From Thunnus maccoyii (lineage: Eukaryota; Chordata; Actinopteri; Scombriformes; Scombridae), in assembly GCF_910596095.1 (NCBI RefSeq), contig NC_056546.1, positions 12,611,925 through 12,675,924 of the forward strand: a stretch of 64,000 nucleotides of DNA, in the 5' to 3' direction. Positions within the stretch are counted from its first letter, which is position 1; every line of letters starts with the position of its first letter. Of the stretch, positions 4,170 through 36,250 are shown piece after piece. Below the pieces are notes generated by a model that did not search any database, was not told where the DNA came from, and was given only the letters and a program-made list of their open reading frames with translations. The translations under genes and the position numbers were made by a program.

Positions 4170-4592
4170 TTTTTTTTTAGTCTCACTTAATTGTTTGGTC
4201 TTTGAAATGTAGGAAAATAGTGAAAAATGTGTATTAAAGTAGTTCAGAGTCCATGTGATGTTTTCATATTGCTAGTTTTGTCAGACCAACAGTCCAGAGC
4301 CCAAAAATATTTAAGGATAGCTTACATTTTTTTTAGCTGACATTAAAAGGGTTATTGGTGTCCTGTCCATACTGGCTGCAAAATATCCCTTCTTAAAGTG
4401 ATTTCAGTGTAGGCTAAGTGATGGAGGAAACCAAAAACTCAGTGTACATTTGGGCATTTGAATACTGTTTTAAGACAAGTTTGAAAATTTGTGAAATTAT
4501 TCTTTAAGTTTGGCATTTTTGCTTGAAAAATGACTCGAATGATTAATCAATCATCAAAATAGACTAAAAACTAAACTAATCATTTCAGCTCT
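4170..4592 (+). mobile_element. Degenerate hAT-like MITE copy
   Basis: Follows the full copy at 9121-9454 in order: aattgtttggtctttgaaatg, a central part with cagtccagagcccaaa, then aaaaatgactcgaatgattaatca and the end catttcagctct. The 5' terminus is lost and the copy is heavily diverged. Confidence 0.5.
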
Positions 4593-5089
4593 ACTCTTCA
4601 TTTACTTTTCCCACTTCATTTTACGAGTACTGCCTAAAATATGAACATCAATAAATTAATTACACTTAATTACATTTTACCTTATTCTTTATATTCTATT
4701 TTATTCCTTAAAAATCCTGTTTATCTGTCACTTTATTACCTCGTGTTTCTTTTAACATTGTGTTTTATTGCCTTTTTATGTCTTAAGTAAAGCACTTTGA
4801 ATTACCTTGTTGTTGAAAGGAGCTACATTATACACATCAACTTTCTGTGCCATAATGAGGACACCCAGAGTTTGAGTTTAATGAAAGAAGAATAAGCAAA
4901 ATCTTTGGTAACTGGTTTGTAATTTTAAATTGTAGGATACCAGACTAACCCTTTTACGTTCACGAGATTCTTTCACAAAGTGCTGAATAAACTCAATAAT
5001 TCACAGTCAAACAAGGATATATTTGGTTACTTTCTGAAGAGTGGACATGTTTTTACTTTTTCTTTTTGCACATTAAGAATCCCTTTAGT

Positions 5090-5600
5090 AATCATAATGC
5101 GTCAGTATCGTGAACAAAACTGGTCTCAGTATTCCTTGGGGAGCTCACAACATTAAAAACTCCAGCGCACTCCAAATTAGCTGTTGAGTTTTGATCTCTG
5201 TATGGATCTGCTGGAGTGGCTATTGAGTCTGAGTAAAGAGTGGTCTGAATTGGACAGTCCTGCTAATGTGAGGGAAGTTTTAGATTAATGAGGCTTCTGC
5301 CCTTTGAGAATATTGATCAAACCCAATCTGGCCAGGAACGATTTCCCATGCTCCCCTGCTGTAATATTAATAATGTATCAACATCACGAACAAAACTGGC
5401 TCTGTATTCCTTGGGGGCACCTACAGGATAAAAACTCAAAGCTCCAAGAAAATGTGAGGCACACTTTGAATGAGCTGCTGAGTTTTGATCTCCGTATGGA
5501 TCTGTTGGAGTGGCTATTGAGTCGGAGTTAAGAGTGTCCTGCAATGGATAGTGCTGCTAATGTGAGGGAAGTTTTAGATTAATGAAACCTCTGCCCTTTT
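5090..5600 (+). repeat. Imperfect tandem duplication of about 220 bp
   Basis: Copy 1 (about 5090-5305) and copy 2 (about 5366-5600) share gaacaaaactgg, gtattccttgggg, gagttttgatctc, gagtggctattgagtc and aatgtgagggaagttttag in the same order, offset 276-294 bp. The linker gatcaaacccaatctggcca (about 5315-5334) has a further relative near 6532-6583. No coding capacity was recognised; the origin is unknown. Confidence 0.65.
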
Positions 5601-5609
5601 GAGGCCAAA

Positions 5610-7599
5610 CTCTTGAAATTCTTTGAAATTTTATTAGTTTTATTGCTGACAAACAAATTGCAAATTTTACAGTTACATTGTAGAGAGGAATAAAAACAAA
5701 ACGCCTGGGGTTCATAAAAGAGAAAAAACATTCCTCAGATAATTATCATAAAAAATGTAATACTTAGAGCAGCAGAATGGTTTGGAAATATTGCTTTAAT
5801 TCAGTTCAGTCAAACATAGCTTTTCAGGAGTATTACAAGAAATGACAAGGTTATATTGTTTTGTTGTTTTAGATATAAAAAATAAACATCACTCTAAACA
5901 GTAATATTACAGCTAATGAATCTGGAGACATTTTCTAGAAAACAAACATGTCAACATTAAAACCACAGAAAAAGCAACAACTATTTATAGCAAGTATTTT
6001 GATGTTCGTCTTTTCTTGTTTTCTGCAAATAATGTTTTGCTGGATTGAAACTAAGGCGTATTTAGAAACAGACCTATTTGAGTTTGTTTATAATTGACTA
6101 TCTAATGGCAGTGTCCAAACTTTTTCCCACTAAATATTTGAGACAAATCTGCACCAGATTACAGGACTAGGTAAAAACAAACAAACAAAACAAAAAACAA
6201 GCATATTTTACTGAATGAGGTCTAATTTGAAACCAAAGAAAAACATTAAAGGGCTGATTCAGCGTTTGATAACTGTTATAATATCAAATTCTTTTGCAGT
6301 AACAGAATATATACACCAGAAGTTCAGGATATTTCAATATAACACCTCAGAACTAAGTAACTGTCTTACCAGCACAATATTGATAAACCTATAAGGGAAG
6401 AATATGCCTTTGTTTCCTTATAGTATGTTACAGTTTTTCATTGTATATACCTACGTGGAGAGATATTGTGCTGTGCTGATTTTTGTTTTTCCAGATAAAC
6501 TTAAATCCTCCAGATGTACATAGACTCATAGTATTGATCAAACCAGTCTGACCAAGAACAATTTCCGTTGGCACCCTGCTGTTCTCTTTGTCCTTTTCCA
6601 GTCAGTGATATTATTGACATCAGCCAGCCCAGAGGCCATCGTTGCAGATATAGTTTTTAATTTTTTCCATTTTACAGAATTTATGAAAATCTGCACTTTA
6701 CAAATGATAACAGTAACATGCAGTTCAGTTTTGCAGCATTACTCAGCTCCGGTACTTCTACTATCATCTACTATCTTCATCTTAAATGGTGACTATTATT
6801 TATTTAGAAAATCATATTTTGAATTATTGAAAAAATGAAATAAATCTGATTATGGGGTGATATTTTTTTCACCTGCTTCCAATCAAGTCAACTAATTGCA
6901 GAATGAAGACTCATTTTCTTGATACTAGTTGAGCAATCTGTCATAATCTGTCTCGTTTTAACACACATACATTAAAAAAAAAAAATCATGAAACAGAGAA
7001 AACTGCACTAACAACATGAAGAAATATTCCACTATACTGCTGGATTTATGCTGTTCAGTTTCAGTGTGTGAAAATCCAAACATGTCACATTATCAACCAA
7101 GTGTGACCCAACAAACTGATCCACATTTCTCAGTAGCAGAGGATGGAGCGTCTCAAACCACAGCAAACATGCTTGTTATTGTCTTTTACAATACTCCTCA
7201 ATACAAATAGGTACAAAAACAATATTAACACAGATTACATGTAGTTTGTTTTTACATCAGCCTCAGATCCAAGCTCCAGGAGCTGCTTCCTCTCCCTGCA
7301 GTGGCTCTGTCTCCGGCCCTCCTGCAGGCATCGTTAGCCAGACGATGATGGGAGCTACAATGGCCATAATGGGAGGGTTGACTGACCCCTGACCCCGTAT
7401 CGATCTGCTGGCTGTGTCCAGCTGGGCCTCCCCAAACCCAGTCAGCTGGAGAGGTGTTTAAAAGCTAACACCCCGGCTCCCATCCACTCCGCTACACACT
7501 CATTAATTACATCATTTACCTGTGACAGTGACAAACCTGCCCGGCCACGCCGCAGTTTATTAGGGTCACTGTATAAAGCCCAGGCCAAACCCAGATCAA

Positions 7600-7600
<1 letters not shown>
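5610..7600. other. AT-rich noncoding stretch
   Basis: Apart from the related fragment at 6532-6583, I see no gene, RNA or named repeat here. Open frames are short and AT-driven. Confidence 0.4.

Positions 7601-7601
<1 letters not shown>

Positions 7602-7642
<41 letters not shown>
7602..7642. repeat. (GT)n microsatellite
   Basis: About 20 uninterrupted GT units. Confidence 0.95.
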
Positions 7643-7643
<1 letters not shown>

Positions 7644-9120
7644 AATGAGGAGTGAAAGACCCCATCTCATACAGTATGGGATTATGAGTATAGATGCATG
7701 CTCCAAAGGGGAGTGTGACTGCTTTGTCCTGGCCTGTCGAGCTCCTTAGTGGGGAAGTTTATTTTGATTTATCTGATATGTTGAAAGACAAAGATTGCCA
7801 ATTTTCTTGTACAGACAAGGATATGAGTATAGATTCTAGAGGAAAAAAATCACAAACAAAAACCTCCAGTAAACTTTATCATTGTAGTCCTTGTAAAACA
7901 CCACCCAAACGACGGTATTTGACATGTTTTTGGATGAAATATAAAATATTGTAGATTTAAGACCACTTCCTTTTTATGTGTTCTGTGTTTGTACTTTCTA
8001 TGCCAATTTGCTGACTCAGTTCTTGGCCCCTCTTTGTTGTCTTTGCTGCTCAGGAGCAGCTGGATGTTTGTGGCCTATTCATTCCTCAACTTTTGTTGCT
8101 GCCTTTGCATTGCCTCTTATTTCTGCAGGTGTCTCCAGCTCTATATCAAGCTAAAAATCACCCCCTTTTCCCCCCTTGCTCTCACCCCTCTATCGTTTCC
8201 TCCTCTTTCAATATCCCCCTTCCTTTTCTCCTCACTATAGCCCTCTACACAATAAAAGACTATTGGTTTCCTCTTGCCATACCTTTCCCACTACACACTG
8301 GTATTTCAATCTTGGCTCAATCGAGAAGGCTGACCTGGAGACATAAAGAATTGGCTTTAAGGCTTTCGAAATGGAACTAAATCTGCTGCAGGTCACACTG
8401 GGGGAAAATAAGCGGCAAATGTAAGTAAGCATGAAATAGTTTTTCATAAATAATCCAAATGACAGCAGGCTTTCTAATGGTGCCAGGGGGCTGTAAAAGA
8501 ATATGTTGCCAATTTCTCCCCTATTAAAGTGAAATAGAAAGCCAAATACATAACGGTGCTGACGGAAAAGTTGCATACCTGGGCCCGTTACAGTGGAGAT
8601 TGAGGACACAGTTGGGTGTTAGAGGTAGTTGTAGTTGGAGGTGAGGTGGGGGAGTGATTGCTCGCCGTACAGTCAAGGTCTTTCCACTGCGGGGAAAAGA
8701 ATGCCCCTTCTTCACATCAAATCAATTGGTCAATAACTGCCCCCCCCCCCCCCCCCTTTTTCCTGCATGTGCACAGGTAGGCAGCTCTCATCTGTCCCTG
8801 CGCAATGTTGATTTGATTTGCACTCATGTTTTTACAAATAATCAATGCTCACATTTTGACTAATACAAGGGCCTGTAACAGCGTACATCATCAGAGAGGG
8901 GGGAAAAAGAGAGAAACAAGGGAAGAAGTAAGAGGCATATATGGGTATGTTATTGACAGAAAAGATAAACGCCAGCATGTAAGAGTGCTGGGTGGTCTTA
9001 ACGAGACTAAAATAGTAGAGAGTCATTGTGGTTGCACTACAGAGCCCTCCAGGTAACCTTTGTACAGTATCATATCTGTTTACAGTTATTTCTCTGGATA
9101 TGAAGATGTTCGATAATAAT
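7643..9120. other. Noncoding stretch with poly-C run
   Basis: Contains a run of about 17 C at 8740-8756 and a mixed-composition block at about 8330-8530 that could be a conserved element. The open frame antisense to 8235-8609 has no recognisable domain. No gene seen. Confidence 0.4.
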
Positions 9121-9454
9121 AGGGCTGCAACTAACAATTATTTTCATTATCATTTAATTTGTTGATTATTTATTTGATTAATTGCTTAGTTGTTTGGTCC
9201 ATAAAATGCCAGAAAATGGTAAAAAACTGTTTTCAAATGTCTTGTTTTGTCCCGAGCACCAGTCCACAACCCAAAGATACTCAGTTTACTATCAAAGAGG
9301 ACTAAAGAAACCAGAAAATATTCACATTTTTTAAAGCTGGAATCTGAAAATATCCTTAAAAAATGACTCAAAATGTTTAATCAATTACCAAAATAGTTGC
9401 CGATTAATTTCATTTTTGCAACTAACTGATTAATTGACTAATTGTTGCAGCTCT
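9121..9454 (+). mobile_element. Full-length hAT-like fish MITE
   Basis: Termini agggctgcaac and gttgcagctct are inverted repeats with one mismatch in 11. The internal sequence (tagttgtttggtccataaaatg, tcttgttttgtccc, aaagaaaccagaaaatattc) is a family I know as abundant in teleosts. It is non-coding, and a clear 8-bp target duplication is not evident. Relatives in the window: 945-1038, 4170-4592 and 44842-45050. Confidence 0.7.
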
Positions 9455-9672
9455 TGATTAAAATGCTTGTTTCCTCCAAATAACAAACTGCGTGCGTTAC
9501 CTTTACCATTAAATACAAGTTTCCATTAAGATGTCACATCCTAGAAGCCTGAAGTCTGGATGTGGACTGTGAGAATAGGGAAAAAATGGGCATCACATAT
9601 GGTGTGCTATCCCAGCCATAAAACATTTGATTGGGCTTTTTGATGTTAATCTAGCTATTTGAGGATAGTATT

Positions 9673-9692
9673 TGTGTGTGTGTGTGTGTTTG

Positions 9693-9726
<34 letters not shown>

Positions 9727-9727
9727 G
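9673..9727. repeat. (GT)n-(GA)n compound microsatellite
   Basis: GT units with one interruption, passing into GA units. Confidence 0.9.
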
Positions 9728-10054
9728 CTGATCTGAAGTCCCCTTGAGTCAGAATCTGTTATTTATTGCTATTAAATGGTTAATTTTCCCGGTGCCCTGA
9801 GGACTTTGGGGTGCATTAAGATGTGAGGAAGATAGAGTTGTCAAGGGTTGGTGTGAATGCTTGATGTATTAGGAGAGCAATTTTGCGAGATCCATTAGGG
9901 ATTTGTTCTGGTCCCTCATACATTTTCCGCTTTTACTTAAACAAGGAAAATGATGATATGACTCAAACGATTTTTATTTAATTTCATGTTTGGGGAGTAA
10001 GTATCTATATGATATTTATATCTGTTTTTTCTGTTTATAGCTATATAGCTATGT

Positions 10055-10435
10055 CTACATGGCCAAAAGTATGTGGACAGCTCAATCCAAAAACATGACC
10101 ATTAACATGCTGCAATAACAGCCTCCACTCTTCTGAGTTGGCTTTCAGCTGCAAGGATTTGCTCCCATTCAGCCACATGAGCATTAGTGAGGTCAATAAC
10201 TGATGTTGGGCAGTAAAGGCCAGGTCCAATTCATCCTAAAGATATTGGATGCGGTTGACGTCAGGGCTCTGTGCAGGCCGGTCAAGTCCTTCCACATCTA
10301 ACTCAGACCCGGCTTTGTGCATGGGGGTATTTTCATGTCGAAACAAGAACGAGTTTTCCCCAAAACTGTTTCCACAAAATTGGAAGAACACTATTGTCTA
10401 AAATATCATTATATGCTATAGCATTAAAGGATACT
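10055..10435 (+). mobile_element. Fragment of widespread fish DNA-transposon repeat
   Basis: Recognisable phrases are ggccaaaagtatgtggac, cctccactcttctgag, gctcccattcagccacatgag, tcagggctctgtgcaggcc and cccaaaactgtttccac, in the usual order of a high-copy teleost element, probably Tc1/mariner-related (family uncertain). The copy is diverged and its ends are not exact. Confidence 0.55.
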
Positions 10436-10439
10436 GCTC

Positions 10440-12530
10440 AGCTGCAGTGGAAGGATAGTAATAAAAAGAGGGAATTTGGCACTAAATAGACAGTAACTTT
10501 GAAAGATGTTGACTTGATTTGACTAATGTGGATGGCAGAAGCTTCAAATTAACTTTAAAATACATTTTTGCTTTAAAGGAGGGCTGTAGATTACATTGAG
10601 AGTGCATTATGAAGGGATCTATTAATAGCCACTAGGAGCAGGAGGAATGATTACAGCAAGAACAACATTTGTCAATGTTCATTTGGGCACCGGACTGCTG
10701 TTTTAAGACAGACTTGAAAAATTGCGAACCTATCCTTTAAGATTTCCCGTAATTGTTACTAATGGACCTACCCCACACCATGAAAAATTTGGCCATATAG
10801 TCTTTATCTTTATCTATTCTGACTATAGCTAAATGTTTAGGAGAAATAACTCTACACATCAAATTAATCTGTCTATCTCTCACTTTGTGCCTGTTTAAAT
10901 TTGTGTGTGTGCGCGCAGGCCTCTCTTGTCTCTGCTCAAGTTTCCTCTCATTAGGCAGTCCTGACAGCTGCTGGAAGAGGCAGAGGAGCCATACTAATCA
11001 GCTGACAGACAGTAATAGCACTCTTTACCACCCCACGACATAAGAGAGGGAGAAAAGAGAGCAAACAAACACCAATTACTGTCCGTCATGAGGACGAGGA
11101 GGAGGCGGAGGAGGCGAGGGGAGGGGGGGCAATAATGTTTGGGCTCTCTTTGTGATCATGCGCTCCTTGCTACCAACAGACCAAACAAGAGGGTCAGCAG
11201 AGTTGTGTCCACAGGGAAGACATGAGTATTAGTGTCAAGTAGGAACACACAATTTTTGTTCTCTGACCCGGAGAGTGGAAACGGAGACTCTTGTTGAGTT
11301 TAATAGTCTTGTTCCTGTTTTGTGTTTGGGTATTTCCTCTGTTATCCTCTTCAGTTTCAGAGCGTTTATCCCATCGTGTGTGTCAGATAGCTGCAGGTTC
11401 TGAACTAAGCCGATGGAAAAGCAGAAACAAAGAGGCAGTTAAAGTGCTATTAGTTTTGATCGGCATGTAATGGACTCTTATTCATTAGCCAATTCATTGA
11501 TCCATCAGTAATCTATTTTCCGACGCAGGAGCTGAATCTCAATCCATTTCCTGAAGTGTCTTGAGTCAAGACGAAATGTACCCCAACCTTTTACTTAATT
11601 CTGATGAGAGGATCTGGTTCCTCCTTTAATGCGGAGTTCCGTCACATTACTATAGAGTGCACACGTCAGTCACACGTAGATGTGACTTATGTCTGTCTGG
11701 CCTAGGGATGCACCCCGTCTGTTTTTCGGGCCTCACTCGAGTCGATTCCTCTGGTCTGCTTGCAGGGGTCTAGTGTAACACTTTCTCATCCCTCTCAGGA
11801 TCACATCCTTGATAGCAACAGCTCTTCAATTATGCAGTGACACAGAGAGATCGGCTGACTCCTTGGACACGGACAAGATAATATGGTGACACTGAGGATT
11901 CATTACACCAGTTCTCTGGGTCAAGGCTCTGGGTTCATAGCCAAGCTCTTTAGAGGACTGTACTGCCAGTTAAACATTTTTGAATGTGAATGTAGAGGCA
12001 AAAATGTTGAATCACTGACTTAAATCATTTCAGTTCAAAGATTCGTAGTATGTTCACTTTTTTAAGCTAAGCAAACCCATCACCATTCATAACACCGTGT
12101 CGTTCTGCGCTGCTACTGACTGTCTGCAGTTGATTAGTATGTTCAGTCTGTTGGCTGTTCAAGCTGTGGCGTTCTGTTCTGGCTCATGCGAGAGCTGTTT
12201 ATAAGGTTTAATAGCTCAGCAGCCGCCTGTCTGTTACAGAGTTATCACATCATAATTGTTAATGTGGCTTTTGCAGTCATTCAGTAAGCTTTTAAGCAGG
12301 CAGTAACACCATGTATCACGGCTGAGCTGACAACAGTGCTTTCAGTAACAGCTGAGGAGAACTCCACTGCTAAAAGCTACTGATTCAGTGATGGCAATGA
12401 TTCAGTTTTGTAGTTTGAAGATTTGGTCTTTAAAGATTTGTTCGTACATGTACTGAGCACCTCTAGCCCTCTGATATTAGGAAATTGTGGAACTTAAATA
12501 CAGTCAACAGCATCTTCTAAAAGAGACTGT
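10440..12530. other. Noncoding upstream domain of hmx3
   Basis: No gene seen. Candidate conserved blocks lie at about 10930-11050 and 11395-11560, the latter with attagccaattcattgatcc and several TAAT-type motifs. The regulatory role is inference. Confidence 0.35.
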
Positions 12531-12532
12531 AT

Positions 12533-13083
12533 TTAAAGGAATAGTTTGACATTTTGGGAAATATTCTTATTAACTTTCCTGCTGAGAGTTGGATGAGAAG
12601 ATTGATACTACTCTCATGTTTGTACGGTAGCTCTAAAACTTGCCGATCAACATGTTATATCTTGTTTGTTTAATCTGTACCAACAACCAAAGTGTTGAAA
12701 TGTCAGTTCATCATTTTCCGAGTCTTGTGCCAAACTATTCCTTGGCTCGGAGCAATAACTTCCTTGAGTCTCTGCTGGTTGCCTAGTAACTGGTCCATTA
12801 ATACGGTGAATTGTGGTTTTCACACTTCTTTTTTTTTTTTTTTTTTTGTACGAATTAAACAAACAAGATATAATGTGTTGATCAGTGAGCTTTAGAGTTG
12901 CCAGGCTAGTGCCCCCCCCCCCCCCTTTTCCAGTCTTTGTGCTAAGCTAAGCTAACCAACTGCTTGCTCCAGCAACATATTTGCCATACAGAAATAGGAC
13001 CATTAGCCTATCATTCCTCTCATGTAACTCTGCACAAGAGAGCAACTAAGTGTATTAACCAAAATGTCAAACTATTTCTTTAA
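12533..13083 (+). mobile_element. MITE with 25-bp terminal inverted repeats
   Basis: Starts ttaaaggaatagtttgacat and ends with its inverse complement, with one mismatch over about 25 bp (ccaaaatgtcaaactatttc then tttaa). The internal gctaagctaagctaacc and gagttggatgagaagattga are typical of an abundant teleost family. It contains a T-run (about 12830-12847) and a C-run (12911-12926). No transposase. Confidence 0.75.
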
Positions 13084-13512
13084 TAATTTTGTCGCTGGCA
13101 AGATTACTAATCAATGATGTGATTAAAGTGATATAAAACAAACAAGCTCCTTTTTTTTAAACTACATCCTCGGTTGAATGGGTCGCCCGGGTCACATTTA
13201 GATATTGTTAAGTGGCTTTGAATAGCTCCCTTGATTTCACAGTTCCAAATGACCCGCGATAATCAGGTCATTAAAATGAGCCCATTCTCCACATCTGACA
13301 CACTTCCACTCCCGCCTCATCTGAATAACAAATCAGCTGTGGAGTGCTTTCTCAAACAGAAAGAGGGGGGGGAAAAAAGAGAAAGAGGGAAAACCAACTT
13401 TCTCTTTATTTTCAGGTTAACCTTATCTCTATATTCAGGAGTAAAGATGGCAAGTAAGCTAGAGGGGGGGAAAGGTCCTGTCAAAAGTGCCAGTGCCTGT
13501 GTGAAAGTACCC

Positions 13513-14050
13513 GGTTTTCTTAATTCATCCCTTAGGACCGGATAAGTCTATCAATCTGTTAAATTGGAAAGCCATTAGGTGCCCTGGTTTATGTGTTTCA
13601 AGCTGTTAACTAGAGGCTGATTGATTGTTGTTCCTTTGATGGGATATGCTGATCTAATCTCACTGTGTGCACGTTTGCAATAAATTACACAATTCATTTC
13701 CCCCCATTTAGAGGAGGGGGGAAATCACACCTCCAGGCATGCCTACGCTCTGCAGGCAAAAGAGCAGGGAACCTATTTTATGGTGCCATTTAGCCAGCAA
13801 GCTTTCAGCAATCCCAGCCTTCTTTCTAACCCCCCTCCTTCGCCCCTCTACCCCTCCAAAAAATCGAAGCATAATCAAGGTGTATGTTTAGAAAATTTAT
13901 TGTTATAATTTTCCCCCATAATCTCTTCCATTTTCCTGCAGCCGCGGTGACATAGATCATCATCTAAAAAGAGAAAATGGATAGCAGTTTAAAATTTATC
14001 GGTCTTTGATTCTCAATTATACGTGTTTATGACTTCATCTGTCTTCAGTG
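13513..14050 (+). promoter_or_regulatory. Duplicated noncoding element, copy A (upstream of hmx3)
   Basis: About 540 bp, 5.5 kb upstream of the hmx3 start, collinear and in the same orientation with 25645-26200 upstream of hmx2. Exact shared words in order: attggaaagccatta (13563-13577), aataaattac (13679-13688), acacctccagg (13727-13737), ttagaaaatttattg (888-902 of the 13-kb block, i.e. 13888-13902) and acttcatctgtc (14032-14043), with imperfect similarity between them. There are many TAAT/ATTA homeodomain half-sites and no ORF shared by both copies. It is best read as an enhancer duplicated with the gene; the enhancer role is inference. Confidence 0.75.
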
Positions 14051-15433
14051 ACTTCAACCTTTTCCATTATGGTGGAATATTATTTGTACGGAATCCATTA
14101 AATTCACAAGGCAGGACTCTAATGGTGGGGCTGCAGCGATTTGCAGAGGGAAAAGTTTTGAAAGGTTGGCTTTAGGAAAAGCGCGGCTGTTATGACACAA
14201 GAAATTGCTTTATTGATGGTCTGCTCTGCTGCCTGTGCATTTGGCCATTTGTTACCCAGCCCATATCTATATCTCAGGCTGACACTGATGAGAACTTTTC
14301 TGTTGCCCTCTCCAGATTACTGAGTTGTAATGACACATACAGGCAGGCTGGGTAAAAAGCCCAGACTCACTGACGATCCAGGGAAGATTTTTGGAGGTAC
14401 AGAAAGTGGATATTGAGGCTGGGTGCCTTGAGGGCTTGGACGAAGCTGCTCGTAATAGAGAAAAAGGGCTACATTGCTCCTGTGACTGTTTCCATCCAAA
14501 CCCTACAGAGGTCATCATCTCTGCTGAGAAACAATAAAGGGAAAGAAGGAGTGATAAAATGTAGATAAAATGATAGCAGGGGAGATAAAAAGGAGAATTC
14601 ATCTTCTATGAGCCCATATCAACTCATAGCATGCTAAGCGACATGTTTTCAGAATATTTCTAAAAGGGAGCGATCATATATTTATCGGAGGTATTACAGC
14701 CTTGTGTTACATTTGCCAGAAGAGCTGTCATCCTCATCTTAAATACATATTGTTTCCTGTTTACACAGGAAGTAACAAGATTCCCTCTAGTCAAGTGGCA
14801 GCTGAAGTGCTCCAACCCGAATGACATTGAGCTCCTTCGACTGGCTGGTGCAAGGTGCCGAGTAAAAGCCAATCACACTGTAATTCAAGATTCGCCTGGC
14901 CACTTACAATCAATACCTGCACAATCCCAATTAAAGCTTGCCGGGTCAGTGGAGGGCCACCAATTCCTTTACAAGTTAAATGCAATACTTAAATCTAAGC
15001 AATCTCAGTGTGGCCTTCGCCGGTTTAATGGCTCGTCCCAACAGGAGTGTCCAGTTAAAAGTCCAGGAAGGACACGGGGGTGGACAGCTCTCGGTGATGA
15101 ATGCTGCCGTCTGTTGTTAATGCAGTTTGACACTAAGATCTTGTTGTCCAACAGGATTCTGTACAAACTCTCCATTTCAAATCCTCATTCCAATTGAAAA
15201 CATCATGTTCGGAAAGGTTACATGCACAGATTGTGTTTCATCAGCTGACATCCGTGTTTACTCAAGCCAGAGTCATTTTGCGGTATAAGATTGTGTTTAG
15301 ACTGTGTCATAACAAAGGTCTGTAATACAGCAGAATGTGATCCACATTTTTATTAAATTAAACCCCCCCCTTTTTTTTCTTCAGTTTTACTGAAATTTTC
15401 CTAAATTGGTACAAAGACTCACAACCTCAGAAC
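14051..15433. other. Noncoding, CNE-like block between copy A and hmx3
   Basis: No gene seen. About 14780-15190 is low-repeat sequence with caattaaagcttg, gccaatcacactgtaattca and similar homeodomain/CCAAT motifs, and is a candidate conserved element. A 20-bp word at 14497-14516 recurs exactly at 39402-39421. Confidence 0.35.
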
Positions 15434-15976
15434 CAGTGGAAAGTAATTACATTTACTCAAGCACACATTTATACTTGTACTTTACTTGAGTGTTTCCATT
15501 TCATGTTCCTTAATACATTTACTTCACTACATTTCAGAGGGAAACATTGTACTTTTTACTCCATTACATTTAACTGACAGCTTTAGCTACTAGTTACTTT
15601 GAAGATTAGGATTTTACTATCAACCATTTATAAAATAAGATGCATTTTTGTAGATTAAACTACAAAACAGCATAAAAAGTAGTTAAAATTAGATCCACCT
15701 TGACTAACTACAAAAGGAAAATGCTTTTTACACATTAATGCATCAGCAGTAATGGTCCAACAATACACTGTAATATACAGTATACTGTGATAGTAAAACA
15801 TTTTTCTGCATTATGAGTACTTTTGCTTTTGATATAAGCACATTTTTACCAATAATTCTTTACTTTTACTTAAGTGACATTTTCAGTGCTCGTACTTGTA
15901 ATATAGTATTTTCATAATGCAGTATTGCTGCTTTTCCATAAGTAAAGGATCTAAATACTCCCTCCGCCACCACTCA
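15434..15976 (+). mobile_element. Non-autonomous DNA element of an abundant teleost family
   Basis: Begins cagtggaaagtaattacatt and runs through cttgtactttacttgagtg, ctacatttcagagggaaaca and tactttttactccattacat to taaaggatctaaatactccc and a ccaccact terminus. It is a very common fish repeat of about 540 bp without coding sequence; the superfamily was not determined. Confidence 0.7.
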
Positions 15977-18929
15977 GAACTCACAGTTCCACCTTCAACA
16001 TCTCATACCCACTTCTTTTTCTCCATTTTTCCCTCCAGTTTTCTCTCCCTGAGCTTTTGCCATTGCATCCATGCCACCACAATTTTGACCCACAGAAAGG
16101 AATTCTCACAAGATATCAAAACAAAAATCTATATTTAATATGGGAGCAATTACAAAGCGAAGTTGGCTGCACAGGGCCGTTGTCACCAGAGCGCGTGTTT
16201 TTCATCAAATAGGTCATTAGACGATGATGGATGTAAACCTATAAAGTATCTAAACTGGACCTTTTAACAAACCACGAGCAACACTATCATTTCTCTAATA
16301 GAACCTGCTGACCGTGTCATTCCCTCCTGCCATTTGTCATTTTTCCTTGTGAAATAATCAATATCTGGGCGCTTTGAAATAAATAATATAAAAGTCATAG
16401 TAACCTACCCGAGGAGCAACAAAAATAGACTTATGGAGCATTCAGAAGGCCAATATGGCCTTTGGGCAATGTCTACTGCATTTTTTAATCAATGCAAAAT
16501 ATGAACTGTATTTTCTAAGGTGCAAACTACAGGATCTTAGTTTGTGCAGTTTATTTTCAAGGTTAGCATCTGTTTTGCTCTTTTTATCCCCAGCTATGTA
16601 TGTGTTGGATTGCCATTAGCCACAATAAGAAGTCTTGTAGTAAAGTATTATTTGTGGAGTAAATATTGATATATTATTCAAAAACACAACGAGTCATAAA
16701 AAATCACTTTTATTCAACGGTTTAAATAATAATACACAGAGGAGAGTAATTTATCTGCACTATTCTATTTGCACCGTCTTGGTCACACAGATGTTCACCA
16801 GGCATCGTTCATTTCCTGACATCCCTCCACCTGAACCTTCATCTTTCTGAAATATTGTGACACATCCATAACTTAAATTTAAACAACTGGAATTATTTAC
16901 AATAATCTCAGACAACTATATTTTTAGTTTTGACACGAAGAAAATGTACTTTGTCAAGGAAGACGGATGATGTGATGTGAGTGAATCACAAATGTCTGCT
17001 TTACTGACAGATATTCTGCCCTGTTGGATTAGTATAGGTTGAGTAAACTGTGTTGAAGTTGTCAATTATTTTAATCATTTTAATAATGATAATAACTATC
17101 TTTATTTCACCACGTTGGTCTGTTTTTTTGTTCTAAAATTTCTTGTTTGATATATGGACTACTGTATGTTATATGTGTAAAGCTGGATTTACTCTGTTCC
17201 TTTAATGCTACTAAATGTGAACAGAGTTGAACACTGATGGTATCCAAAATGGTTTTATGGATATAAACATAAGTGGCACCTGATACACTATTACAATAAA
17301 ATAATAAAAAAAAATAAAATGACTGCATCTGGATGTAAAATTTCAATTGTAAGAATCAAGGCTTTCTGTCCATCACACCTCCATTTAGATTCAGACTGTC
17401 CTTATTCACAAAGCATCTAATCCCAACCAGAGATACACGTTTTGCACCACAGCCTGTGTGGTGTGCCATGAAATACCTGCGAGGGTGACCATGTAAGGAA
17501 AGGTGGTAATTACATCACAGTAACAGGATATCTCCACTTGAGCAGCACACTAAATGAATGACACGAGTTAATACACGGACATACCGGCGCATGTAGGAAC
17601 TCTCAAGATGATGGAGGGAAAAAAAAAGGCACCTCAGTACAACCCTTACCTCGTCACTGACACCCCTCATTATGGCTGCATATCACATGGCTAATGAATG
17701 TCTTCAGGGAACAGATGATGATGATGATAATTCATAACTGGAATGAGTATCTCAGTTAGGTCACACGTGTGATCACATTTTATAGGACAAAAAGAAGAAA
17801 GTTGTCCAATTTTTTGACTTTTTTGTCACTTTAGAGGACATTTACTTGTATTTATTCCCTGCATGGTGACTTATCCTAACACACACTCACACACTCCCCT
17901 CACACATGCGCACAAACTTGCATTTCCTCCTCACGGCCCACAGAGGACGCTGTCTCCCCGTTCTTCTACACCATCCACCATCCGGCTGCTTTTTTTTTTT
18001 TTTTTTTTTAAACAAGTCAATTAATATCAATGAGCGAATATACATAGCACATTTACAAAGAGTGCAATCTGAGGGATGAATTAACCAAATCGATTAGGGA
18101 GGATAAGTGACTGTGCGACCCGCAGACATGGTGGAAGTGGCCCTCGCTGGAAATCAATGAATTAGAAATATGAATCTAATCGCCCATTGGTGACACGTCG
18201 AGTAGCTGCAGCCTGATCTCAGGCCTTTTTCATATTGTGTCTGAGAGTCTGATAAGCAACAGTTTGGAGATAATTTGACGATTACAGTGATTACACACTC
18301 TTGGTGATGTTTAATTCGTTTTGTCAGCGTGTTGGGGTGCAAAATTTAAACGAATACTATTACTATTAGTTATTATTATTAAAATAGAGCGCGATTCCCG
18401 AGACTTTTGCTCTATTTATGTTAACATTACTATTATGAGTCTACATGGCTTTCAATTGGAGTATTAAATCTAGTATATGTGCTGTTGGATAGCTGTTATG
18501 GCTGGTTTGTTAATCTCACACAACAGGATTTGCTTTGAGATAATTTGCTTTTTATTCAATTTAATCTATTTGACGGACACAAATACATTGCAGACCTGGA
18601 TAACCAATGCAAGCTTTAGGTAGGCCTGTGAGTAGACTGTAAGCTGTAGGCTATTATTATTTTCTTATTTCGTTGAACCGCATAGGTTCTGGGGATAATT
18701 TTAGAAAGTTAAATAATATTTATCTATAGTGATAACCAAATTTTAAAAAACAACAAAACCCCTGCGGCCTGAATGGAAAATGTAGCCTATCACTAAATGT
18801 AAAAGAAAAAACCCCACAGAATTATGAGTAAACTAATGCAGTCGATCTGTGGCTGGCTGTAATGTTAGTTGTGTGTTGAGGCGCTTATCCCAAACCTTCC
18901 TTTTTGGCGCTAACAGCCCTGTGTTCATT
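15977..18929. other. Noncoding hmx3 upstream region
   Basis: No gene seen. Candidate regulatory blocks lie at about 16140-16420 and 18030-18340 (aatgaattagaaatatgaatc, gataatttgacgattacag). A T-run lies at about 17990-18009. The remainder is AT-rich. Confidence 0.35.
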
Positions 18930-18967
18930 TGCTGCCTAATTGGACTATATGAGACCAATAACAGGCG
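18930..18967 (+). promoter_or_regulatory. Facing CCAAT boxes, candidate hmx3 promoter
   Basis: ATTGG at 18939-18943 and CCAAT at 18955-18959 face each other 570-600 bp before the hmx3 ATG, followed by GC-rich sequence and then the long (TC)n tract. Paired NF-Y sites are common in developmental promoters. No TATA box is evident. The start of transcription is not visible. Confidence 0.3.
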
Positions 18968-19010
18968 AGCGCACACAGCCTGCAGCCAGAGCGCACAGAG
19001 AGGGGAGGAT

Positions 19011-19011
<1 letters not shown>

Positions 19012-19105
<94 letters not shown>
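19012..19105. repeat. (TC)47 microsatellite in the hmx3 5' region
   Basis: 94 bp of perfect TC, 433 bp before the hmx3 ATG and probably in the promoter or 5' leader. It generates spurious Ser-Leu and Arg-Glu open frames on the two strands. Confidence 0.95.
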
Positions 19106-19108
<3 letters not shown>

Positions 19109-19537
19109 CTCACCGTCTCTCCCTTAATCCCATTTGCCATTGTACATGCCCAATCGCCTATACTTTCCGCATTTAACTTGGATGACATTTTTATTTCATC
19201 ATTAGCATCAGACGCCAGACTGACTGACACGGTGGACACAGTTTGCGTTTTGACGAAAGAGCCCGGGATGATATATCTCCTGTGTTTGTACATGTTTTTA
19301 CCGCTCAAACAGCTTTATTTTATTATTTTTCTAGCCTAGAAGGACGTCTGTTTTGACGCGCTCTCCGGGTGTGAAATCGAGTCTCCGCGTTAAATCGTCG
19401 AGAAGAATAAAACAGGGAGTCATCGTAGCCAGGATATCAGCAGACTGTAAGTCAGCCTCGCTGTTTTGTTTTGGTTTTTTTTTTCTTTTTGATTTCTTGC
19501 TTCCGTGGTCCTTTGCGTCCAGACCACAGCCACAGCG

Positions 19538-21392
19538 ATGCCAGAGACAACGCAAGAGACGTGCGCTTCGGCCAAGGACTCTCCTTTCTTCATTAAGAAT
19601 CTGCTGAACTGTGATAACAAACCGTCCAAACCCAAACCCGTGCTGGCTGCCGCTAAGGCGGCTTTGGAGGGGGGATTTTCCCTCTCCCAGGTCGGGGAAT
19701 TCAACTTTCCACGCTTTGACCTGCCCGCACAGAGGTTCAGTCTACCGGCTCACTACTTGGAGCGCACCTCGGCGTGGTGGTACCCCTACGCCCTCAGCTC
19801 ATCCGCCCACCTACACAGAACCGAAGGTAAGACCGACAGACAGAAAACAATAATATTTATTATACATTATGGCCAGTGTTGATTTTTGAGTTTCTTTTTC
19901 TTGACCATTAAAATAGCAAGGGAATGTTAAAGGAAAACTGTTTGTTTAATAACAAACACATTAGATGACCTTTCCGGACCACGTGCACATGTCTATTAAT
20001 ATATCTAGTAATGTCACTGCACTTCCTCCTCAGATATTCAGTAGATAAGAGGAGGATTTGGGATGTTTTGGTGATGAGTAATAATATTGGTTGTCTTTGC
20101 CACACCGCCGAGTGAACTGGCGCCTTGTCCCGTATGAAGGCCTATTTTGTTATGCCATGCACGAGGGATAATAGATCAATAAAGTGACACACTGTGCATA
20201 AAATGAAGTAGACATCATCAAATCATCGGATGAGGGTGACGATGCGCAGCGTGCTTTTGATTTGTCTATTGGCGCTCACTCTGAACATCTTACCCCAGAG
20301 GTTTGACCACTGACAAGCTTTTACCTGCCCGTTTCTGTGATTTATTCACGCGGGATTCAAAACACGCTGATATGAACGGCACTATCATGGCTTCATGCAA
20401 AGTCAAAAGGGATTTTTTTTTTGCTTGCCTTGTTAGAAGAGAGGTTATATAACCAATTTGTTAAAATAAAAACTAACACAGACCTAGATGTTGAATAGTT
20501 TATTTCTTTAGTGCTCCTTTTATCAGGCTAATAAATAATAGTTTGAATAGGCCTATATTTGAACACGGTGTCAGTTGGGCATGGTGTCCTGTGTGGCTCC
20601 AAAAATGGGTGATATTGATGTTACAAGACAGTTTTTGGTGCTATTTAGGACCACTCTGGTTTTCCTAAAGCCCACATGCTGTCAGAATCAACAGGCTGTT
20701 GTAAAAAAAAGTCAGACACCATCAGGCCCCAGTGTTAATAACCACATATCCCTGTGTCCCCCATTCCAGTCACCGAGAAACCAGGAGCCAGAGACTCCTC
20801 TCCAACCTCGGGCACGGACAGAGACTCGCCGGACCTGGTGCTCAAATCCGAGCCAGACGCCAAAGACGACGACGAGGACGACGAGCACAACAACAACAAA
20901 AGCGGCGACGAGATCATACTGGAAGAAAGCGACACGGAAGAAGCCAAAAAAGACGAGCTGGGGGAGTGGAAGAAGATGGACGACGACAAGAAGCCGTGTC
21001 GCAAGAAGAAGACGCGCACGGTTTTCTCCCGGAGCCAGGTGTTCCAGCTGGAGTCCACCTTCGACATGAAGCGGTACCTGAGCAGCTCGGAGCGGGCCGG
21101 CCTGGCCGCGTCCCTGCACCTGACGGAGACTCAAGTGAAGATCTGGTTCCAGAACAGAAGGAACAAGTGGAAAAGGCAGCTGGCCGCGGAGCTGGAGGCC
21201 GCCAACCTCAGCCACGCCGCGGCGCAGAGGATAGTCCGGGTGCCCATCCTTTACCACGAGAACTCGGCCTCGGAGAGCGGAGGCGCCGCTGCCAACGTAC
21301 CCGTGAGCCAGCCGCTGCTCACCTTCCCGCACCCCGGCGTCTACTACTCCCACCCCATCGTCACATCCGTGCCGCTGCTCAGACCGGTTTGA
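19538..21392 (+). CDS. hmx3a: Homeobox transcription factor Hmx3 (Nkx5.1), two coding exons
   Basis: Sequence-specific DNA-binding nuclear factor of the HMX/NKX5 family; known roles are in inner ear, lateral line and hypothalamic neurons. Exons 19538-19826 and 20770-21392 join in phase 1 (exon 1 ends GAA G before gtaag; the acceptor is ccattccag) to give 303 aa. Residues 17-23 (FFIKNLL) form an Eh1-like Groucho-binding motif. The N-terminal stretch with [20 protein letters not shown] is typical of HMX3. LKSE near residues 121-124 fits a SUMO consensus (inference). An acidic Asp/Glu/Asn-rich stretch covers about 127-159. The homeodomain is 175-234, with W48 at residue 222 and N51 at 225, and recognition-helix core [12 protein letters not shown]. 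The HMX-specific [17 protein letters not shown] follows it, and the tail ends in VPLLRPV. The start was chosen because MPETTQ matches the family and lies in a fair context. Paralogue hmx2 lies 6.9 kb downstream in the same orientation. The 'a' suffix assumes the teleost copy linked to hmx2. Confidence 0.96.
19827..20769 (+). other. hmx3a: hmx3 intron 1
   Basis: A 943-bp phase-1 intron with donor gtaag and acceptor ccattccag after a pyrimidine-rich tract. It separates the N-terminal Eh1 exon from the acidic/homeodomain exon, the same position and phase as in hmx2. Short open frames run through the acceptor into exon 2 but have no family similarity. I see no other gene in it. Confidence 0.9.
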
Positions 21393-22324
21393 AAATAACT
21401 GAGTTTTACGGCACAAATTGGTGTCTATTTCCAAAATCAACTAATGCGAAAAGTAAAAAAAAAAAAAAAAAAAAGGACACAGCCTAATATTTTTGTACAA
21501 CTGACTAAATGAAGAAACAAAGAAAAGAAAAGAGACACACTGTCAGGCCTACATGGACCTATTTAGGCAAATATGTTGTGTCATTTTCCATAAGGTTGCA
21601 GTTTACACGTGATCCGACAATTCAATTTCATATTATTATTATTATTGTTATTATTATTATTATGATTATATGTAATTATCACCTCAGGAGTCCACCTGCT
21701 TACACTGCCTGATGAGTGTTTTGGTTTTTTTTCTCCCTAGTTCTACACCATGACTGTTGTTGACAGGACAATGTTGTGTAAAGTACAAGAAAATTTACAT
21801 TGTTTACAAAACCTGGCGGCCTAGAGGCGCGGGCCTGCTTATCATCTGACAGTTATTTGGTTTAATTTACATTTCCAGAACTGATAACACGAATATGTGC
21901 AATACACTGACGGTGTGCTGTGAATGAATGAATCCATGTTTTGTCATCCACGGTGGAATATTGATGAGGCTCTTTTGCTTTTTTTGTAATATTTCCCTTT
22001 TTTTTTTTTTTTTTTTTTTTTTTGCTTTTCAAAGCGCTTGACGGGGGACAATCAAGACACTCTCAACTGTAAAAATAGCCATGTAGCTTTATGTTTAGTT
22101 TTAGTGATTCTCACTCCTGCTCCCTCCACACGGACACGTCCTTCAAGCACAAGTGTGAGCTCCACTGTCACTTAATCTACTAAAAATATCGACTACACTG
22201 GTGTACAAAATATGTAAATGTATATATTTAATGAGGAGCGGGGAGAGGAGCTGCCACTTGCGGCTTCTTCTTTGTACAGAAAAAAAACAACGTTTTGATA
22301 TTGTATTGCTGAACCATGTTGTGA

Positions 22325-22330
22325 AATAAA
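22325..22330 (+). terminator. hmx3a: hmx3 polyadenylation signal
   Basis: AATAAA about 930 nt after the hmx3 stop, in a clear AT-rich 3' UTR. The UTR from 21393 contains an A-run (about 21457-21474), ATT repeats (21633-21664) and a T-run (about 21999-22023). It is the best placed signal before the sequence turns into dinucleotide repeats. The cleavage site was not determined. Confidence 0.6.
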
Positions 22331-22350
22331 TGGAGAATATTCCTTACATT

Positions 22351-22796
22351 TTTAGGAGTGCAGCATCGTGTGCTCTGTATCCCAGATCTATATAATTTCT
22401 ACTGTGTTCGTGAAGATTTTAAACCAGAGGAGGTGAAATGAGTCATATTTAATTAATACATATTTAATTTTTCGTCACTACAACGGGTTTCATTTTTTTT
22501 ACACTATCTTCATGCATTGGCATACAAAAAGTCTTCACATTATGATACAACTAATTCATCTTTAATCTGATATAGAAGAAAAAATACGCACAAACACACA
22601 CACACACACACACACTTGGAGGTTGGGCAGGTGGGTTTCTGTAATCATCTTACTGTTATGCACTTTAAAAACGTTATTTTACATAAAAAGTGGCTCGGTC
22701 AATTAGATGCGTAATTGCCACCATCTTGCCAAAATTATCAGTAATGTATTCAGAGGAGGACATTACTCCCTGAATATGAGCTGCTGTCTTTTAACA

Positions 22797-22841
<45 letters not shown>

Positions 22842-22846
22842 CTCTC

Positions 22847-22892
<46 letters not shown>

Positions 22893-22910
22893 TCACTCTC
22901 TCTCTCTCTC

Positions 22911-22948
<38 letters not shown>

Positions 22949-25644
22949 GTATGTTCAGTAGAGAGATGGAAAGATCTATGGCAAATATTTCCACCTCCAA
23001 TTTGTTTGGTGTTGCAGCAAGCTCTCAGTTTGACAGCTTTATCTTTATTTAAATTCCGTATTTTAAGCACATTTTAAAATATGTCTTAATCCAATTAAAT
23101 TGCTATTAGATAGAAAAAAACACCATATCCTTACCCCACAGTAAAAGCCTACATTAACGGCTTATCTCCAGAAATTGTAAAACAAACAAACAAACAAGAA
23201 AAAAAAAACAAAGTGTAAAATTTGAAACTCGAGATAAATGATTAAAGTGGTACTTTGTAACACATACGATCCTACAAGTGTCACTGGACACCTGATGCGA
23301 CTGTCTCATTGGAGACATGTCTAGGTGTGTATGTAATTTAAGTAAATAATACGTTCAAAGTCAGAAACGAATAAAAATAAGATGATGCTGCCGGTGTTTA
23401 TACACATTATCCTGCTTCAGCATTTTTTCTTTAACAAGGAAACAACCTCTGAGCGAATATGATGGATTTTAATTGCCTCCCACTTTGATTCAAGATACTG
23501 CGTGATTTGAAAAGATCGATGGAAATTAATAAAATTGCGTTAAAAAATATTACAGGCTACCCCATCCCGATCTTAATATTAAGAAAAAAAAGTTTCAGAA
23601 TCACATTTAGATTTTCAAAATAATAGCAGGATCCAGTTAAAGCATGACATTTTTACAATCATTATATGCACTGTTACTGTATATACTGTTTTTTGTTTGT
23701 TTGTTTGTTTGTTTTGTTTTCTTCAAACAGAACTGGGTAAATTGTCATAAAGTTATAAGGGAGCAATGCAGATCCAAGTGGAGGAGGCTGAACACTCAGC
23801 CTCTGTTGAACTGGGCGCAGCTATAAAAAGCAATAATCAGCAATAATGTAATAATTATTTTTGACCATTTCTCTATTAGCAATGAATTGCTCAATGATGA
23901 AATAATAAATAATAATCATAAGATATAATATTTTATTTAAACAACGGTTTAAACGTTTCTTTACGCTTGATTATCATCCACCTGCAGACTGTAAACAGGT
24001 GACGGTGTCCAGGTGGAGACTTGTAGACATCTGCAGAGAATCTATACAACCTGCCTGTGCATGCTTCCTTTAATTAAAACACCAACACTCGACAAAGCCT
24101 GATTCAGTAGTGCGCTCAGAGCGTGTTTGACACGCAGGACAGTTTTAAGAGACTCTGTAGGTTCAGTCTACCTGCAGGATACAGCAAATACATAATATCG
24201 CACCTGGATCGTCCAAGCATTCAAATTATTACTACCATAAAGAAATTTGCTGCCATTTTAAACGAGCTTGTGGGTGAAATCAACGTGTATTTCTCAGTCA
24301 GAACCTAAAAGGCCATTTTCTGTTTTCATCTGTGGGCTAATACAGTTATTGGAAATGAATCAGTCAGCTATAAACTCCATATGATGACCTCATCAAGAGA
24401 CAAAGGGTTCATTCAAAATATCGTCAGATCACCCAAGTATTGACGTGTACCTACCATGCACACTCAACACGGCCCCATTACTGCAAATTAATAGATTAGT
24501 ATGGCATTATTCCTCTGGCACATATCGATCTGTAAACGTCTGCAGCACATTGCGTCAAGTAAGAGCAACGTTCACAGGCCGCTTCGGCTCAGCTTATGAC
24601 CTTGATTTGCGCGCATAAATTGAAAAAATTACCACTCGATAATTTCCATTTGTGCGACATCTTTATGTAAAGGAGAATAGGGAGCGGGGCCAAAATCAGA
24701 TAAAGTAGCCTACATTTGTAGGAACGGGGGCAAACGGACGTGACCGGGGACAGCGCTCAGTGTATTACATTAAAATGGAGAGCTGAATGGGTAATTTTCT
24801 GCCATATCAATGGTTTTAGTGCCAGTTTGGAAACACACAAGTGGGCCCGACCACCTTGCGTAACGCTAGCCTCTTTTCTGCAGCCACTGGCATCTGCTTA
24901 CATGTGTGCAGGACAATTAAAGAATGTTATAGCGCGACTTAAAGGCTGCATTAAAGATTAACGCATTTATTTACAGCATCAAAGGGGGGATTCTGTTATG
25001 AACCATTTCTGGCAGTGGTTCATGAAATGAGGTTCAGATCCCCAACTGAGGTCCTTGAGAGGTTGGCAGAGGATCCCCTGCCAAGACAGAAACCATGTGA
25101 TTCCAGTGATATTTCAATTGAAGCAGTAAGATATGAGTTTAAAATATATTTTTACACCATCACATATGAATAATTTAAGAAATCATGTCAAACAACAAGC
25201 ATCCTCCTTTGGCTCCTTCGGGCAAAAACGTGCCAAAAAGTGAACGTGTGTGAAGAAAAGCTGCAGATCAAACACACTTTTTCACGTTGGCTCTGTGCGT
25301 GAGCAAATGGATCCTGATACAGGCCTTGGTAGAAATCATTAGTATAGTTTCATAATCAGAGGCCAAACAGAAGTGGTGTGAGCACCTCGTGCACCTGCTG
25401 TGACGCGTCAAGGCTCGTGTGTTTGAACAACTCTTTTTGACACTTCTCGGAGAGGAAATCTTGTTTTAAACCCGTATCATTTGCTTTCCTGATTGAATGC
25501 GAGCATCAGATTTTCATCAAAGTTCTATTAAGTGAAACATAGGTTGCGGGGCACCGTCTGATTGGAACAGTTTAAATTTTAATTGTGTTTTTAATTTGAC
25601 ATATAGTTGCTGTGAAGAATGACACTGAAACGCCGAGGGGCGGT
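22351..25644. other. hmx3-hmx2 interval, first part
   Basis: No gene seen. It has a CA repeat at about 22592-22615 and a long compound repeat at 22802-22947. Candidate conserved blocks lie at about 23440-23560 and 24540-24720 (gcgcataaattgaaaaaatt, cgataatttccatttg). Other open frames lack similarity. Confidence 0.4.
22802..22947. repeat. (CT)n-(GT)n compound microsatellite
   Basis: CT-rich with small interruptions to about 22914, then about 16 GT units. Confidence 0.95.
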
Positions 25645-25883
25645 CGATTTTCTTAATTTCTCCCCGAGGAATTGATGAGTCTATCAGGGCAGTAGATTGG
25701 AAAGCCATTAAAACTCAATGGTTAGGTTGTTAATTGGAACTTGATGGATAGGAGCCCTTGGATAGGCTGTACTGATCCAATCTTCCTGACTTTGTGTTTT
25801 CCAATAAATTACCCAGTTCATTTCCACACTCAGATTACATAAATTGTACACCTCCAGGGCTCAGGCGCTCTGCTTGCGTTTAC

Positions 25884-25930
<47 letters not shown>

Positions 25931-26200
25931 TCACACGCGCACACACACATGCGCGCGCAAGGACGCACACAAACCGCCTCCTGAAAAAAGAGCAGGCCCC
26001 GCTTTCTTGAATGAAAATCGAAACATAATCAACGTTTATACTTAGAAAATTTATTGATATCATTTTCTCTGGTAATTTCCTTATTCTAGAGTTGGACACG
26101 CCATATATCATAATACACACGTGTAAAGGGTCTTTGTTTAATATTTATCGAAGCTTGATTCCCAGATCAAAGCGCCTCATAACTTCATCTGTCTCTCTCA
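25645..26200 (+). promoter_or_regulatory. Duplicated noncoding element, copy B (upstream of hmx2)
   Basis: Partner of copy A, 2.1 kb upstream of the hmx2 start and inside the hmx3-hmx2 interval. Shared exact words: attggaaagccatta (25696-25710), aataaattac (25803-25812), acacctccagg (25848-25858), ttagaaaatttattg (26042-26056) and acttcatctgtc (26182-26193). Between the third and fourth words, copy B holds a (TC)n tract (25886-25922) plus CA/GC-rich repeat, where copy A has a different C/T-rich spacer. The element therefore has two conserved halves joined by a variable middle. Confidence 0.75.
25886..25922. repeat. (TC)n within duplicated element copy B
   Basis: Perfect TC run followed by CA/CG-rich dinucleotides to about 25970, filling the variable middle of copy B. 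Confidence 0.9.
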
Positions 26201-26828
26201 GACCTTTCTCTCCTGGTAAAGATCTTGTTCTGTTATTGCGGTAGGGCGGCCATACACCACCTATCATTGTGATAGAGCACGAACTTAGGGCCGCTGCTCG
26301 CTGTTTGGGCCTCGCTGTGCAGGCCTCGGTGAAAACATGGGGGTCGAGGATGAACATTTCCATACTAATAGAGGCAACTATACACTGCCTGCTCGGCCTG
26401 TGCGACCGGGCCCATAAAACGCTAACTCTGACATAAAAAAAAACACAACGTGTAGCCTACAACAATCCATTCTCTGGAGCACAATAGCAGCCTGCTATGT
26501 CCACTATCTCTATGATGAACTAATCTCACTTTGCAAAAGTCGTCTGAAAGTGATGAAAGCGGCTGCACTGACAAAGGTCTTTGTTTGAAAAGAGCGGCAT
26601 ATAAAATAAACCCATTTAACTGTCATTGCAGATTTCACGCCTTATGTGTAACCACCATAAATCCAGCATCCACCCTGATTGTCCTCATATATTTGCCCCC
26701 CCCCCCCCCCCTTTCCTCTCAGTAAAGCCTCCCCTGCGTAAGCGTTTTGTTAAGATCGTTTAGCAGCTGCTGGCCTCGCTGCCAGTTGACGATATTTACG
26801 CGTGGATCCAGATGCTTCAGTCTGGCTG

Positions 26829-26890
26829 CTATGATGATGATGATGATGATGACGACAGAATCTGCTGTCAACATCATCATCATCATCACC
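26829..26890. repeat. Triplet-repeat foldback (ATG)n ... (CAT)n
   Basis: An ATG tract is followed 6 nt later by its inverse complement. Arms of about 23 nt (26836-26858 and 26865-26887, two mismatches) could form a hairpin. Confidence 0.7.
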
Positions 26891-27122
26891 ATCAGCACCA
26901 CCACCGTCCACAGTCGTCGTCTTCTTCTCCCCTTTTTTTCCCCATCCTCTCTTAATACCAAATGCCGGTTGTGTAGCTACCGGGAAGGGGCGCTGACATG
27001 ATGATTAAAGCTGACCATTTGTAATGTGTCTGGGGCTCCCTTACAAAGCAGTAAAAGAGGGATAATGTGCCTCGAACCGCCAGCTCAAGCCCCGCAGCTG
27101 TCCCGCAGCCAGACACAACCAC

Positions 27123-27124
<2 letters not shown>

Positions 27125-27167
<43 letters not shown>
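27125..27167. repeat. (GA)n microsatellite
   Basis: About 20 GA units, 1.1 kb before the hmx2 start. Confidence 0.9.
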
Positions 27168-27170
<3 letters not shown>

Positions 27171-36244: not shown

Positions 36245-36250
36245 TATGCA

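Follow-up and report, generated by a model that had tools for sequence, protein, structure and literature searches.

The stretch of DNA analysed here (the window) comprises 64,000 nucleotides from Thunnus maccoyii and contains two homeobox genes on the plus strand. The first, hmx3, occupies positions 19538 to 21392, with exon 1 at 19538-19826 and exon 2 at 20770-21392. The second, hmx2, occupies positions 28292 to 29819, with exon 1 at 28292-28565 and exon 2 running from about 29272, one of two open acceptor options, to 29819. Both products contain a Pfam Homeodomain, and their best protein matches are named HMX3 and HMX2, respectively. The hmx3 product displayed 98% identity to HMX3 of Trachinotus anak, the best among 120 of 2494 matches listed, and the hmx2 product displayed 99% identity to HMX2 of Mastacembelus armatus and others, the best among 120 of 249 listed. 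Among the matches listed, spiny-rayed fishes were at the top for both genes. Searching the PDB with the hmx3 reading frame gave, among the 60 of 119 entries listed, only homeodomains of other proteins and was of no help in naming the gene. A preliminary description of this DNA had named the genes hmx3 and hmx2 and had placed one copy of a noncoding element upstream of each; the protein matches and the distances to the start codons bear out both points.

The two noncoding blocks were subjected to local alignment, each taken with approximately 100 bp of flanking sequence. Copy A (13512 to 14044, plus strand) and copy B (25645 to 26194, plus strand) matched end to end in plus/plus orientation, with 344 identities in 501 columns plus 81 gap positions. 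Copy A starts 6026 bp and ends 5494 bp before the hmx3 start codon. Located between the genes, copy B begins 4253 bp beyond the hmx3 stop codon and stops 2098 bp short of the hmx2 start codon, and the two copies share the same side and orientation relative to their own genes. These bounds fall within a few bases of 13513-14050 and 25645-26200, the limits originally proposed for one noncoding element present twice in the same orientation, and that proposal is upheld.

The alignment score was 91.5, compared to a mean of 12.9 (sd 1.5, maximum 19) for dinucleotide shuffles of copy B (n = 300) and a maximum of 19.5 when both copies were shuffled (n = 300). The reverse complement scored 13.5 and reversed copy B 12.5, and no other place in the window scored above 19.0 when both strands were sampled at a step size of 200. 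Because the score lies far above those of the shuffles, the reverse complement and other places in the window, the similarity is not due to chance, and the concern raised in the preliminary description, that the blocks might align no better than shuffled AT-rich sequence, is answered. In a BLASTN self-comparison of the window the pair ranked fourth of 15 at E≤1e-3 (E 2.9e-20), outranked by the homeobox exons and by two pairs resembling repeats at other places. When the region upstream of hmx3 (6000-19500) was compared with the region upstream of hmx2 (21400-28290), A and B were the sole strong pair other than simple repeats among the best 12 rows per strand. Together these results confirm that the duplication is real.

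Several other repeats were seen in the window. An inverted repeat with 75-bp arms that are 77% matching (12533-12607 and 13009-13083, BLASTN) lies just upstream of copy A and is possibly a small transposon remnant. Two adjoining segments of about 240 bp (5083-5305 and 5359-5599) form a direct repeat with 77% identity by BLASTN. A dispersed direct pair (9063-9278 and 44783-45031, 67% identity by BLASTN), parts of which are matched by 4187-4308 and 4259-4309, is likely a repeat family.

Similarity between the copies is organized in two conserved halves, with 164 of 230 and 132 of 179 columns identical, on either side of a diverged middle in which 48 of 92 are identical. In copy B the middle carries a (CT)n microsatellite (25886 to 25926) that is absent from copy A. 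Each half aligns with its own counterpart far above shuffles and does not align with the opposite half. Perfect runs of at least 8 bp measure, in order, 11, 9, 15, 11, 11, 8, 9, 9, 15, 8 and 13 bp. The preliminary description had reported exact matches of 15, 10, 11, 15 and 12 bp in the same order with diverged spacers between them; that list of matches is close but not exact. Six runs of at least 11 bp were observed compared to 1.5 expected, a count that 3 of 2000 shuffles of the columns attained when the gaps stayed fixed. Under the same shuffling, the three runs of at least 13 bp were reached in 31 of 2000 and the two of at least 15 bp in 39 of 2000. A gap-skipping form of the statistic, which merges some runs, gave 4, 177 and 184 of 2000 for runs of at least 11, 13 and 15 bp, respectively.

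Three of these runs form the longest identical cores, all on the plus strand. The first 15-bp core, ATTGGAAAGCCATTA, is found at 13563-13577 and 25696-25710, and the second, TTAGAAAATTTATTG, is found at 13888-13902 and 26042-26056. The 13-bp core ACTTCATCTGTCT at 14032-14044, aligned with 26182-26194, contains an E-box, CATCTG. When up to 2 mismatches were allowed, ATTGGAAAGCCATTA had two matches in the window, and 5 of 100 shuffled windows likewise had at least two. A pattern built from 9 and 14 bp of core gave 0 matches in viral and genome contig collections, a result that is uninformative on vertebrates.

Candidate binding sites were examined by a scan of eleven motif classes. The CATCTG at 14036 is the sole CANNTG of copy A and is retained at 26186 in copy B, which has two extra CANNTG sequences at 25946 and 26118. 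Five of the eight ATTA/TAAT cores in copy A align with one in copy B. Both TGATNNAT sites of copy A are also aligned in copy B, 13618 with 25742 and 13952 with 26103. At the first of these, copy A carries TGATTGATTG (13618 to 13627, plus strand), a match to TGATNNATKR, while the aligned site at 25742 retains TGATNNAT only. At the second, copy B carries TGATATATGG (26101 to 26110, minus strand), also a match to TGATNNATKR, while the aligned site at 13952 retains TGATNNAT only. Each copy thus has the full pattern once, and the aligned site that carries it differs between them. TGATNNATKR is quoted as a PBX-HOX consensus in PMC4489388. It is not commoner than chance in the window, where 19 matches were counted compared to 16.9 expected. 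The scan revealed no aligned sites for the TAATTA, TCF, SOX, MEIS and POU patterns, and the MEIS site CTGTCA is absent from both copies.

A random 6-position pattern is retained from copy A to copy B at 61 of 526 positions when gapped and at 73 of 528 when contiguous. Since gapped patterns are conserved at this rate in any case, and since eleven classes were scanned of which several had no aligned site, the conserved sites are suggestive only. The E-box, the homeodomain cores and the PBX-HOX-like sites may be regarded as putative inputs.

Work on zebrafish allows the copies to be compared with elements of known position; the zebrafish details given here are from PMC10683209. Three CNEs at matching positions emerged when zebrafish was compared with human, mouse, chicken and Xenopus, with CNE I and CNE II located 6193 bp and 2886 bp before hmx3a and CNE III located between hmx3a and hmx2 (PMC10683209). 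Copy A resembles CNE I in position, starting 6026 bp upstream compared to 6193 bp. Copy B is intergenic like CNE III, and its offsets from the hmx3 stop codon and hmx2 (4253 and 2098 bp) differ from those in zebrafish (3199 and 3297 bp) by 1.1 to 1.2 kb. By position, copy A would correspond to CNE I and copy B to CNE III. The sections of PMC10683209 examined do not describe CNE I and CNE III as copies of one another. Six zebrafish primers, covering the three CNEs, were compared with the window and only two reached 15 of 20 matching bases. None of the four primers for CNE I and CNE III matched more than 14 of 20 bases anywhere in the window, in general not above shuffled primers. The CNE II forward primer matched best at 16138 (15 of 20, 3.4 kb before hmx3), which 32 of 100 shuffled primers equalled, and the reverse primer matched 15 of 20 bases at 21540, equalled by 29 of 100.

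The region 16138-16726, around the expected place of CNE II about 2.9 kb before hmx3, is a candidate conserved element. We found no convincing duplicate of CNE II in the window. One segment at the expected CNE II place, 16618-16726, was considered as a second duplicated element together with 23829-23953. The score of this pair, 23.5, exceeded the maximum of 22 from 300 shuffles, but two of 60 control queries on the same target scored higher (24.0 for a query from 30551, and 70.5 for one from 43751, which overlaps a CT repeat). The order is not colinear and the match was judged to be AT-rich chance similarity.

The zebrafish reporters differ in activity. CNE III drove spinal-cord expression like that of the endogenous gene and missed the ear and lateral line, whereas CNE I, assayed in injected F0 embryos, gave only a weak signal at ectopic sites, namely heart, notochord and skin (PMC10683209). 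Among the zebrafish CNEs tested, hmx-like expression came from the intergenic element only (PMC10683209). The spinal-cord activity of CNE III therefore supports enhancer function at the position of copy B. Because the element at the place of copy A gave only a weak ectopic signal, copy A may be unable to act as an enhancer on its own, and the difference between CNE III and CNE I argues against a simple reading of two redundant enhancers. The suggestion in the preliminary description that the pair accounts for the overlapping expression of hmx3 and hmx2 is weakened by the same reporters.

Based on these results, we conclude that A and B are, in all likelihood, paralogous enhancers that arose by tandem duplication of an ancestral Hmx gene together with its upstream enhancer. 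The copies are homologous, they agree in position and orientation relative to their genes, and they contain common sites. Additionally, PMC7768253, citing Wotton 2010, takes the neighbouring positions of Hmx2 and Hmx3 as suggestive of a tandem duplication. Duplication of gene and enhancer together, the origin proposed in the preliminary description, is retained here as the best reading of the homology, the orientation and the gene adjacency, the account of overlapping expression that had been attached to it being partly contradicted by the zebrafish reporters.

It is improbable that a local duplication, independent of the gene duplication, placed a copy of the enhancer by itself between hmx3 and hmx2. 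Such an event would be in keeping with a similarity that is limited to the blocks; outside them, no convincing resemblance in noncoding sequence was found between the regions upstream of hmx3 and hmx2. The 1-kb 5′ flanks of A and B scored 16.5, matched by 2 of 100 shuffles and at non-corresponding places, and the 1-kb 3′ flanks scored 13.0, matched by 39 of 100. The promoters (1.5 kb before each ATG) scored 14.0, inside the range of 60 shuffles (maximum 18), and nothing common downstream of hmx3 and hmx2 was better than E 0.35. However, if the event is very old, flanks and promoters are expected to have diverged beyond recognition, and the location of the copies on the same side and in the same orientation at both genes favors joint duplication.

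Even less probable is an origin of A and B from a dispersed transposable element, two copies of which landed by chance upstream of the genes. The window does contain retrotransposon remains, namely non-LTR retrotransposon-like RVT_1 and Exo_endo_phos pieces (Pfam) on the minus strand at 34393-34767 and 35381-36250, which lie 4.5 to 6.5 kb past hmx2. In a profile search with A and B, however, no third copy was detected in the 64-kb window beyond one weak hit (18964-19054, E 3e-4) overlapping the CT repeat at 19012-19105; the remaining rows had E values of 0.63 or worse. The BLASTN self-comparison of the 64-kb window, too, gave two copies only. Furthermore, the perfect runs are clustered, and the positions of the copies agree with those of conserved zebrafish elements (PMC10683209). 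That the copies are noncoding RNA or unannotated exons instead of enhancers is hardly credible, as no supporting point was found, the window has no Rfam match at the gathering score, no stop-to-stop frame of at least 110 aa overlaps A or B (a length that leaves room for shorter exons), and the zebrafish element at the position of copy B acts as a reporter enhancer (PMC10683209).

Under joint duplication of gene and enhancer, an ancestral Hmx gene would have been duplicated in tandem along with its upstream enhancer to give A and B. Each copy would be a cluster of binding sites, with two conserved halves around a middle that is free to vary. The inputs common to both would be the E-box CATCTG, the five aligned ATTA homeodomain cores and the two PBX-HOX-like TGATNNAT sites. 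Proneural bHLH factors, Neurogenin among them, could plausibly act through the E-box. In Ciona, Neurogenin knockout abolishes Hmx expression in bipolar tail neurons (PMC10909405, citing Papadogiannis et al. 2022). We propose that A and B probably activate hmx3 and hmx2 in neural cells, in the spinal cord in the case of copy B and, in line with published work, also in cranial sensory ganglia, and that copy B, being intergenic, could reach the promoters of both genes. Enhancer function in Thunnus maccoyii, the binding factors and the age of the pair are what we infer.

We consider it doubtful, yet worth stating, that the lineage of this fish has seen a division of inputs between the copies. Both would have the E-box and the homeodomain cores, the full PBX-HOX site would be held by the first half of copy A and the second half of copy B, and copy A would act only with copy B or in another tissue. 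If so, the pair would represent a natural dissection of one ancestral enhancer and not a redundant pair. With a tandem-duplicated enhancer beside both daughter genes, core sites can be read from a single genome.

Tandem-duplicated enhancers are, according to the preliminary description, found in a few other homeobox clusters such as Irx. For Hmx itself, Papadogiannis et al. (2022, Nature 605:701, 10.1038/s41586-022-04742-w) reportedly described a unique tandemly duplicated enhancer pair that regulated Hmx in the stem-vertebrate lineage, and are said to have tested Hmx elements in lamprey and Ciona. Published work reportedly places Hmx enhancer activity in cranial sensory ganglia. That pair reportedly consists, like the present one, of two noncoding elements of the Hmx3-Hmx2 locus that are similar to each other. 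Its layout, reportedly one copy upstream of Hmx3 and one between Hmx3 and Hmx2, is also that of A and B. The present sequence differs in coming from another fish. Given the layout, A and B are presumably the Hmx enhancer pair of Papadogiannis et al., and the duplicated pair has very probably been described already. The link that such a pair makes between vertebrate cranial sensory neurons and an old Hmx programme is reportedly a point already made. What is new here is one further fish sequence and a candidate list of common and copy-specific sites. The duplication is probably old, and retention of both copies over hundreds of millions of years, as the preliminary description proposed, would agree with the stem-vertebrate pair reportedly described in the 2022 study. 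The cross-species positions of the CNEs in the examined sections of PMC10683209 point in the same direction.

In the literature collection searched, no paper describing such a pair at Hmx was found. Several published elements may be set beside A and B. CONDOR CRCNE00009713 and CRCNE00009716 are vertebrate-conserved and close to HMX2/3, and in the bat Pteropus alecto CRCNE00009716 ends some 4 kb short of the Hmx2 start codon (PMC4302572). A and B are similar to these elements in location near HMX2/3, a likeness of place. The element hmx2.9713, which from its number would appear to be CRCNE00009713, drives expression in zebrafish hindbrain and spinal cord (PMC4489388). On a longer time scale, an Hmx enhancer is reported to be conserved as far as sea anemone (Royo 2011, cited in PMC10735318). 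A and B resemble the duplicated conserved noncoding elements (dCNEs) at other developmental genes, where paralogous elements are found beside paralogous genes (PMC2781166, PMC1896008). In contrast to the CNE duplicates of PMC11034925, which belong to paralogous loci from whole-genome duplication, A and B fit a tandem duplication.
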